Part shown: positions 19,721 through 21,529 of the stretch, piece after piece
Position numbering within the stretch: the stretch's first letter is position 1
Layout: each line of letters opens with the position of its first letter
Assembly (NCBI GenBank): GCA_005878955.1
Contig: VBMI01000091.1
Span: forward strand, 1-54,621
Source: Methanobacteriota archaeon
Lineage (GTDB): Archaea; Thermoplasmatota; Thermoplasmata; RBG-16-68-12
Direction: 5' to 3'
DNA length: 54,621 bases
The notes under the pieces: generated by a model
What the model was told of the DNA's origin: nothing
The model's input: the letters and a program-made list of their open reading frames with translations, nothing else
Database searches by the model: none
Translations under genes and position numbers: made by a program

Positions 19721-19742
19721 CAGTTAGCATGCTGGTCTGACC
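19721..19742 (+). repeat. Core repeat site A
   Basis: CAGTTAGCATGCTGGTCTGACC. Confidence 0.85.
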
Positions 19743-19762
19743 GACGGAGGGCCATCGAGAGA

Positions 19763-19780
19763 CAGTTAGCATGCTAACTG
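19763..19780. repeat. Core repeat site B (18-bp perfect palindrome)
   Basis: CAGTTAGCATGCTAACTG. Confidence 0.9.
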
Positions 19781-19805
19781 GGAGCTTGCGGGCGGGGCGG
19801 GGAGC

Positions 19806-20048
19806 TCATCTCCTTCGCCGGACCGCGCGCAGGACCGTGGAGAGGGAGCCCATCTCGCGGTACGCCTGCGCGAGCTGGTCCGCGGGCCCCCGCGGCATCC
19901 CGCCCTCGAGCAGCGCGCGCTCGAACTCCTGCACGCCGAGCCGCCGCTTCCCGAGGTACCGGAGGTACTCCGCCCCGAGCCGCAGGGCGAGGATCGGGAC
20001 CGTCGCCGCGAGCACGAGCGGGAGTCGGTCCCCCTCACTCGGGCTCAT
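19806..20048 (-). CDS. Small hypothetical protein with a possible N-terminal TM
   Basis: MSPSEGDRLPLVLAATVPILALRLGAEYLRYLGKRRL; overlaps the upstream gene. Confidence 0.55.
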   Translation of the reverse strand: MSPSEGDRLPLVLAATVPILALRLGAEYLRYLGKRRLGVQEFERALLEGGMPRGPADQLAQAYREMGSLSTVLRAVRRRR

Positions 20049-20355
20049 CGGCCTTCCCCGCCTCGTCGTGCCGGCCGCGCTCGCCCTTCCCGCCCCCCAC
20101 CGCCCCCTGGATGATCTTCCCCAGGTTCAGGGAGGACATGTACTGCTCCGTGAGCTTGAACGCCTGCTCGTCCGTCATCCCGCTCTCCTTCACCGTGCGG
20201 TAGAATCCCGCGACGGCGAGGCCGTACTTCTCCGCGGACGCCTTGCCGTAGAGCACGTCCGTGAGGTTGTTCAGGAGGGTCGGGACCTTCTCCGAGAACA
20301 GCCCGAGCATCTCCTTCATCTCGTCCAAGTTCGGCTTCCTTCCCCGTTCATCGCC
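20035..20355 (-). CDS. Hypothetical helical protein
   Basis: MGDERGRKPNLDEMKEMLGLFSEKVPTLLNNLTDVLYGKASAEKYG; overlaps neighbours in an operon-like way. Confidence 0.6.
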   Translation of the reverse strand, partial: GDERGRKPNLDEMKEMLGLFSEKVPTLLNNLTDVLYGKASAEKYGLAVAGFYRTVKESGMTDEQAFKLTEQYMSSLNLGKIIQGAVGGGKGERGRHDEAGKADEPE

Positions 20356-20857
20356 CATTCGTGCCACCGCCTTGTCTTCGAACGTTCTCAGCGCGGTCCT
20401 CGTATTTGGGGAGACCGAGCACTTGTGACCACCGCTCCCGCACTCCGTCGGACACGCGGAACGTCCGGCCGTGGAGCCCGCGGGTCGCGACGACGATCCC
20501 GTCCCGCTCCAGGTCCGCGAGCCGCTCCCGCACGATCCGGCGGGAGGCGGTCCCGCGCCGGCCCTTCACGGCCTCCGTGATCTCGGAGATGTTCCGCTCC
20601 CCGCGGTCGAGGAGGGCGGCGACGATGTGACGGGAGATGTCGTCCTTGACGCCGGGCGTCGCGAGGTCCGGGGAGACGCCGCCGTACCGCTGCACGAGGT
20701 CCATGATCCGGAGGTAGCCCCGGGAGAGGTCCTGGAGCCGCTCCAGGGCGCCCGCGAGCTCGGAGTATGGCTGGGTCACGCGGGAGAACGCCTCGCGGAG
20801 GGCCTCGATCTGCTCCCGCAGCTCCCTCAGGTCCTTCCGGATGTCCTCGCCCGCCAT
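20348..20857 (-). CDS. Winged-helix DNA-binding protein with an N-terminal helical region
   Basis: DDISRHIVAALLDRGERNISEITEAVKGRRGTASRRIVRERLADLERDGIVVATRGLHGRTFRVS. Confidence 0.7.
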   Translation of the reverse strand: MAGEDIRKDLRELREQIEALREAFSRVTQPYSELAGALERLQDLSRGYLRIMDLVQRYGGVSPDLATPGVKDDISRHIVAALLDRGERNISEITEAVKGRRGTASRRIVRERLADLERDGIVVATRGLHGRTFRVSDGVRERWSQVLGLPKYEDRAENVRRQGGGTNGR

Positions 20858-21090
20858 CGTGCGGCCCCATGCCGACCCGGTCGCTTATAGCCCGCGTCTC
20901 TTCCTCCGGGGACGGGGACCCGGGAGCCCCGCGAGGCGGGCCGTCTCCAGCTCCCGCCGGATGTCGAACTCCCGCGTCCGGGCCACGTGCCACTCCATCA
21001 TCTTTCGCACCTCGGGATCAAGGAGGCGTGGTCACCCGCCATGAGCGAGGCGGAGAGATGTGGCCACCCGTGGCCGGTGACGGCGCGAAA

Positions 21091-21108
21091 CAGTTAGCAT
21101 GCTAACTG
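21091..21108. repeat. Core repeat site C (18-bp perfect palindrome)
   Basis: CAGTTAGCATGCTAACTG, overlapping the stop codon of the gene at 21102..21437. Confidence 0.9.
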
Positions 21109-21437
21109 GGGACCGGACGCCCGCGAAGGCGCCGGCGCCTGCGGAACGACGCCAAGTTTGGCTCGTCGATCACGAGCCGGCCCAGGCCCACGGAGGCCCC
21201 CATCCCCGCGAGTCGGTCCCGGAGTTCGAGGGCATCGCTCCGGGGAAGGATCAACACGGACTGACCCACCCACACAACGCCGGGCCGGTGAATGAACCCG
21301 GGCTGATCGTACGTTGCAGGGTGCCCGTACCGCGTTGTCGAGTTCTTCCGGCCGAAGACCACGTGGGCGACCCGGACCGAGACCGCGCGGTCCCGGCCGT
21401 CCACGTCGTACGAAAGGATCCACAGGTCGTCGTTCAT
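21102..21437 (-). CDS. Hypothetical protein between core sites C and D
   Basis: MNDDLWILSYDVDGRDRAVSVRVAHVVFGRKNSTTRYGHPATYDQPGFIHRPGVVWVGQSVLILPRSDALELRDRLAGMG. Confidence 0.6.
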   Translation of the reverse strand: MNDDLWILSYDVDGRDRAVSVRVAHVVFGRKNSTTRYGHPATYDQPGFIHRPGVVWVGQSVLILPRSDALELRDRLAGMGASVGLGRLVIDEPNLASFRRRRRLRGRPVPS

Positions 21438-21507
21438 GAGAGGTCCATATGGACAGCTATATAATAGCCTTGACGGGGGAGGTGGCCGAAAGTACTCCAT
21501 GGAGCGA

Positions 21508-21529
21508 CAGTTAGCATGCTGGTCTGACC
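21508..21529 (+). repeat. Core repeat site D
   Basis: CAGTTAGCATGCTGGTCTGACC, identical to site A over 22 nt. Confidence 0.85.

Follow-up and report, generated by a model that had tools for sequence, protein, structure and literature searches.

Sites and genes at the locus

The window, which here means the whole stretch of DNA analysed, comprises 54,621 nucleotides of a Methanobacteriota archaeon (contig VBMI01000091.1 of assembly GCA_005878955.1). As shown in Table 1, the segment under study carries four copies of a short repeat (sites A to D), a three-gene operon between B and C, and a single ORF between C and D, preceded by a TATA-like box and a promoter motif.

Table 1. Coordinates of the repeat sites, genes and promoter elements in the window.
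Feature	Coordinates	Strand	Description
Site A	19721..19742	.	Solo, before pirin; D-type arm and C-type outer flank
Site B	19763..19780	.	Complete palindrome standing alone, 42 bp from A
Three-gene operon (wHTH-like 169 aa, 110 aa, 80 aa)	19806..20857	-	Host cluster outside the unit
Site C	21091..21108	.	Complete palindrome CAGTTAGCATGCTAACTG at the ORF's 3' end; equally placed in the G002 copy
111-aa ORF (MNDDLWILSYDV...)	21102..21437	-	Multicopy, lineage-restricted family without known domains; predicted ferredoxin-like fold
TATA-like box GCTATTATATAGCT	21455..21468	-	About 20-30 bp upstream of the ATG; conserved in group I copies
Promoter motif GAGTACTTTCGGCCA	21483..21497	-	Common to family copies and one conserved host ORF
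Site D	21508..21529	.	5' site of the unit, arms AACTG and AGACC (gene sense); same position in the G002 copy

An exact copy of the core CAGTTAGCATGCT begins at the first position of each of the four sites, and the start-to-start spacings are 42 bp for A-B, 1328 bp for B-C and 417 bp for C-D; both the positions and the approximate intervals (42 bp, about 1.3 kb and about 0.4 kb) given in the preliminary description of this locus are thus confirmed. When up to two mismatches were allowed, seven matches to the core were seen on both strands, compared with 0.10 expected from shuffled sequences. B and C match on the minus strand as well because both are complete 18-bp palindromes. Sites A to D are the only repeated ones among the 54 palindromes in the window. 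A count across the genome, which the preliminary description had called for, found the 12-mer AGTTAGCATGCT at these four places alone in the whole assembly (2.15 Mb in 180 contigs), with 0 matches for the control, and a generic intergenic repeat is therefore ruled out.

The four sites differ in their arms and flanks. A and D retain one arm, AACTG in the sense of the gene, and the other arm is replaced by AGACC; their right flank, GGTCTGACC, is identical, and B and C have AACTGGG in common, which completes the 18-bp palindrome. On the left side, B and D are identical at 9/12 positions (P about 0.002), whereas A and C are identical at 7/12 (P about 0.03), a value near chance that B and C reach likewise. 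The earlier proposal that all four pairings of two left and two right flanks occur, as would follow from recombination at the core, is consequently solid on the right side and holds for B/D on the left, whereas the A/C left flank is marginal.

The B-C interval had also been regarded as a cassette. This part of the proposal is abandoned because the operon is resident, being found between RqcH and pirin in the related genome G001 too. The first gene of the operon was found in 41 of 61 relatives, and the 12-mer AGTTAGCATGCT was found in none of the relatives with this gene. Sites A and B form a pair before pirin that encloses no gene of the family described below. A diverged palindrome, GAAACAGACCAACATCTTGGTC, stands at the same place before pirin in G002, and a solo CAGTAAGCATGCTAACT lies before RqcH in G001. 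Such solo palindromes near pirin or RqcH were observed in three congeners (L036:4985-5006, L035:6459-6476 and positions 19721-19742 of the window), with diverged sequence and similar position. Site A looks like a hybrid of the D side and the C side, as a deletion between D and C would leave. Its interpretation as a clean D/C excision scar is weakened by the counterpart in G002; because this diverged counterpart occupies the corresponding position upstream of pirin, A need not be a fresh excision product. The solo sites may be old remnants, or even operators.

The C-gene-D unit at occupied and empty loci

The stop codon of the 111-residue ORF (21104-21102) lies inside palindrome C, and site D stands upstream of the promoter motif. 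In the sister species G002, a copy of this ORF is present at a different locus, again with a C-type and a D-type site, where the C-D spacing is 416 bp compared with 417 bp in the window. The two ORFs are 75-78% identical with a dN/dS of 0.16. In G002, a B-type site lies 47 bp outside D, and the adjoining gene is one that we take to encode cyclic 2,3-diphosphoglycerate synthetase (cDPGS). The window species and G002 each have no unit at the site used by the other. The same C-gene-D arrangement at another locus bears out the earlier suggestion that the C-D interval is a real unit; the proposal of recombining units bounded by sites is thus supported in part, for C-gene-D and not for B-C.

Related units were found to be present in one species of the genus and absent in others at fixed loci. 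A unit occupies the ArsR-ACS locus in G002, which is empty in G000 and G001; the position downstream of PdaD in G000, empty in G001 and G002; the position upstream of PGK in G001, empty in G000 and G002; the position upstream of cDPGS in G002, empty in G000; and the position upstream of the wHTH operon in the window, where G001 and G002 are without the unit. About five empty loci were compared in this way, and the intergenic DNA is too diverged for exact junctions or target duplications to be read from them. Presence and absence at fixed loci between close relatives is the behaviour by which a mobile element is recognised, and a conserved operator without variation in content is ruled out by these occupied and empty loci. 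The core is specific to the C-gene-D unit.

At one hot spot, family members that differ entirely from species to species lie between the same two genes. Between L130 and L149, the flanks are 82-98% identical and the inside is 24-54% identical; the divergent block starts about 42 bp to the left of the first palindrome and stops about 30 bp beyond the last one on the right. Between L131 and L132, the left flank and left palindrome are about 98% alike, and divergence starts about 22 bp inside the palindrome. The break points of present, absent or swapped units lie just outside or just inside the palindromes. The variable content between sites for which the preliminary description had proposed a test is found at many loci, where family units are present, absent or swapped, and the units move or are exchanged between species. 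Between close genomes, ordinary homologous recombination via the flanking genes could account for the exchange.

Some loci carry additional genes. The hot-spot units L120, L131 and L138 have a second, membrane-protein-like gene ahead of a further palindrome. At L179:780-1350 (G002:C114), palindromes of the family type and the promoter motif surround an ORF without any family gene; from its sequence, and without a score, we take this ORF to be glyoxalase-like, and cargo capture is possible.

The protein family and its palindromes

As to its distribution, the family has 7 copies in the window's genome, 5 in G002, 10 in G001 and 9 in G003; within the archaeal family of the window a genome may have as many as about 10, and copies are rare elsewhere. 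It is present in 29 of 300 genomes of the class, nearly all of them in the window's family and order, and when 392 genomes sampled from the phylum were searched with a profile, only the window's genome and a second one from the same order matched. The named relatives are metagenome-assembled genomes titled Euryarchaeota or Thermoplasmata archaeon. One contig of a record titled Terrabacteria group bacterium (L117) carries a family copy with flanks resembling the archaeal purM locus and is probably mis-binned. No match to the family was found in Pfam, PHROGs, NCBIfam, PADLOC or the PDB sequences, no relatives were found in viral contigs, phages or plasmids, and no description was found in open-access papers. 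The family is previously unnamed, and its hosts are soil and sediment archaea.

The member proteins have about 90-125 residues, their units measure about 400-550 bp, and the dN/dS values of 0.09-0.22 indicate purifying selection on the proteins. Among the conserved residues are Asp11, Arg22, Gly29, Gly47, Gly53, Gln59 and Ser60, and the family sequences have basic tails. In the AF2 model of the window protein (pLDDT 90.7, pTM 0.75), strands and helices follow one another in a ferredoxin-like order, to which a hairpin is added. Among solved structures, the closest folds are those of CutA1, the C-terminal domain of HisG, UreE and Cas2, none of them significant, and a Foldseek search of the model against viral structures gave nothing significant. 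The family resembles Cas2/VapD in its strand order, an Asp at the end of strand 1 and a QSV-like stretch; it differs in the extra beta hairpin of the model. Foldseek against Cas2 (5zyf) gave a probability of 0.82, an E value of 0.13 and a TM score of 0.40-0.49, and the comparison of the family profile with 28 Cas2 sequences gave 14%. The Cas2 domain PF09827 gave no Pfam match for the family and was not found in G000 or G002, where the family is multicopy; no association with Cas1 or with a regular repeat array was seen. No known RNA family scored above threshold in the region.

Each of 27 copies was scanned with its own palindrome, and cognate sites were found both upstream and downstream of the ORF in 27/27, with weak downstream matches in two (G000_C165 and G006_C293). 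The nearest upstream site is mostly 88-205 bp before the ORF, the downstream site is mostly within 35 bp of the ORF end, and extra sites often lie 40-75 bp further outside. A wider automatic screen, which favours two-sided sites by design and failed on GC-rich noise at some loci, gave sites on both sides in 46/47 loci with an AT-rich motif. The palindromes vary from copy to copy, examples being CAGTCAACATGTTGACTG, TGGTAAACTTGTTTACCA, CCGTAAGCATGCTTACGG, TTTCGTGTATTTACACGAAA and TATGCCCAACTGGGCATA. The distance between palindrome half-sites tracks the distance between proteins over 43 loci (Mantel r=0.59, reached in 0/5000 permutations), and the correlation also holds within group I and within group II; part of it can be explained by linkage alone. 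At the purM locus, where the unit has the same position in two genera, the sites are TGGTAAAC in G000 and G002 and CCGGCTTAAC in G003, G005 and G009, and all sites at this orthologous locus change in concert. Target-site duplications are ruled out as the source of the palindromes because the same palindrome moves with the unit to other loci and because of this concerted change.

Within loci, 99 departures from the palindrome are one-sided and 13 are compensated, the pattern of a duplex site that a protein recognises. The pairing exceeds that of shuffled sequences only mildly, being reached by 22 of 2000 shuffles, which makes a strict hairpin requirement doubtful. Asymmetric sites, with the AGACC arm or a TGTTTC extension, follow one another in the same orientation, and in one lineage the arms have a constant bulged C (GG-C-TTAAC..GTTAACC). 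An unrelated 82-residue ORF (..YFYFWHYEREGGRSLRKEEYVG..) at L178:3255-3535 (G000:C123), the same as in L205, is flanked by the palindromes CATACCTCTACTTAGAGGTATG and ATACCTCTGCTTAGAGGTAT and has the GAGTAGTTTC motif upstream; it may represent a second gene family using the same layout. Given this ORF and the glyoxalase-like cassette, the palindromes may not be tied to the family protein in all cases.

The promoter motif GAGTACTTTCGGCCA is found upstream of many family copies and also precedes a conserved 40-residue ORF without palindromes; therefore, the promoter element of the units is probably one of the host, and GAGTACTTTCGGCCA as an end of the element is ruled out by the same occurrence. 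This ORF (MIDAETAMNLQ..PCSWEEVYASFGCSV..) was observed with the motif in three species (L199, L210 and L209), which would make up a shared host regulon. Group II copies have their 5' palindrome between GAGTACTTTCGGCCA and the start codon, a position that suits an operator.

Candidate mechanisms and significance

The results presented above suggest, with a probability of roughly 0.6, that C-gene-D (about 430 bp) belongs to a lineage-restricted family of mobile units, each consisting of one gene with a copy-specific palindrome on either side. Judging from the sequences, the encoded protein quite probably binds its palindromes, presumably as a dimer. It would plausibly control its own promoter, as the position of the group II 5' palindrome suggests, and it may assist when unit and sites are inserted, lost or swapped together in one block. 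Sites A and B would be solo sites that the present unit left behind or that predate it. That the protein itself catalyses the movement is proposed tentatively. It is rather doubtful that a protein of roughly 100 residues would be a new type of recombinase or transposase acting on its own palindromes, with no HuH, tyrosine- or Y1-family match.

It is also somewhat unlikely that the protein is an autoregulator only, with the palindromes serving as operators and the units being gained, lost or swapped via the flanking genes, either by homologous recombination of the host or by horizontal transfer. The group II palindromes next to the start codon, the predominance of one-sided changes, which fits a duplex protein site, and the location of the swapped blocks between conserved flanking genes agree with such a regulator. 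However, there are sites downstream of the gene as well, frequently several, which is unusual for operators; the same unit occurs at unrelated loci with clean empty sites, which goes beyond homologous exchange alone; and one exchange starts just inside a shared palindrome. A regulatory role has also to be considered for the solo sites near pirin and RqcH (A, B, the solo site in G001 and the counterpart in G002), which might be operators of the host genes under the family protein or another regulator, considering that they stand at similar distances upstream of these genes in three congeners. This is unlikely, as their sequences vary from species to species and the counterpart in G002 is unlike the palindrome of the G002 unit.

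Two mechanisms known from other elements appear less probable still. The preliminary description had suggested recombination at the core in a layout resembling a small cassette array. The recombinase would be encoded elsewhere in the genome, and the cassettes would be similar to those of integrons, in which IntI acts on structure-specific attC sites and arrays grow at attI (PMC9668308). The present family and integron cassettes, including archaeal ones, are alike in having short gene units, palindromic sites and occasional two-gene strings; the right flanks of A/D and B/C and the left flanks of B/D combine as recombination would give, and some units have a second gene or another gene between the sites. 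This mechanism is nevertheless improbable here. The sites are copy-specific palindromes of 16-24 bp on both sides of the gene, and they differ between copies of one genome, which makes a common sequence-specific recombinase unlikely. The operon between B and C is resident, and the search for a recombinase co-occurring with the core, which covered tyrosine-recombinase and Y1-transposase domains, identified none: the tyrosine recombinase domain PF00589 was detected in G003 and G009 and in none of G000, G001, G002 and G005, and both domains were undetected in the three congeners, provisional results given the incomplete assemblies. Mobility through single strands, in which the protein would bind hairpin palindromes and cut beside them, is very improbable. 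The nearest analogue by organisation is the RAYT/REP system, in which a small gene has flanking palindromes that are specific to it and differ between paralogues, resembling a minimal transposable element (PMC2817692); the family gene is likewise flanked by gene-specific palindromes. RAYTs have HuH and tyrosine motifs, and their flanking REPs are inverted and present in many copies per genome (PMC2817692, PMC6006769), whereas the palindromes of the family are near-perfect, in direct arrangement and essentially without copies away from the unit. As in IS200/IS605 elements, there is one small gene with palindromes near both ends and no conventional terminal inverted repeats; unlike in those elements, the palindromes vary from copy to copy and the units measure only about 400-550 bp. 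The small size of the units, the pairing of palindrome and protein, the constant bulged C and the slight excess of pairing over shuffles are consistent with single-strand mobility. However, the defining catalytic motif is absent, with HuH in 0/34 members; no Y1_Tnp Pfam match was found in the family protein and no Y1_Tnp gene in six genomes, and in many palindromes the central bases are all that could form a loop.

With the units read as one-gene mobile units bounded by their own palindromes, the family presents a protein without a match in the libraries searched, each member of which carries its own DNA address, and which appears, vanishes and is swapped between sister species. It supplies dozens of natural pairs of protein and palindrome, on which the evolution of DNA-binding specificity can be tested directly. 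Should the movement be the work of the protein, a new class of mobility enzyme would be represented and the known size limit of self-mobile elements would be lowered; were it to act as a recombinase or transposase, its units of 400-550 bp would be among the smallest self-mobile elements known.
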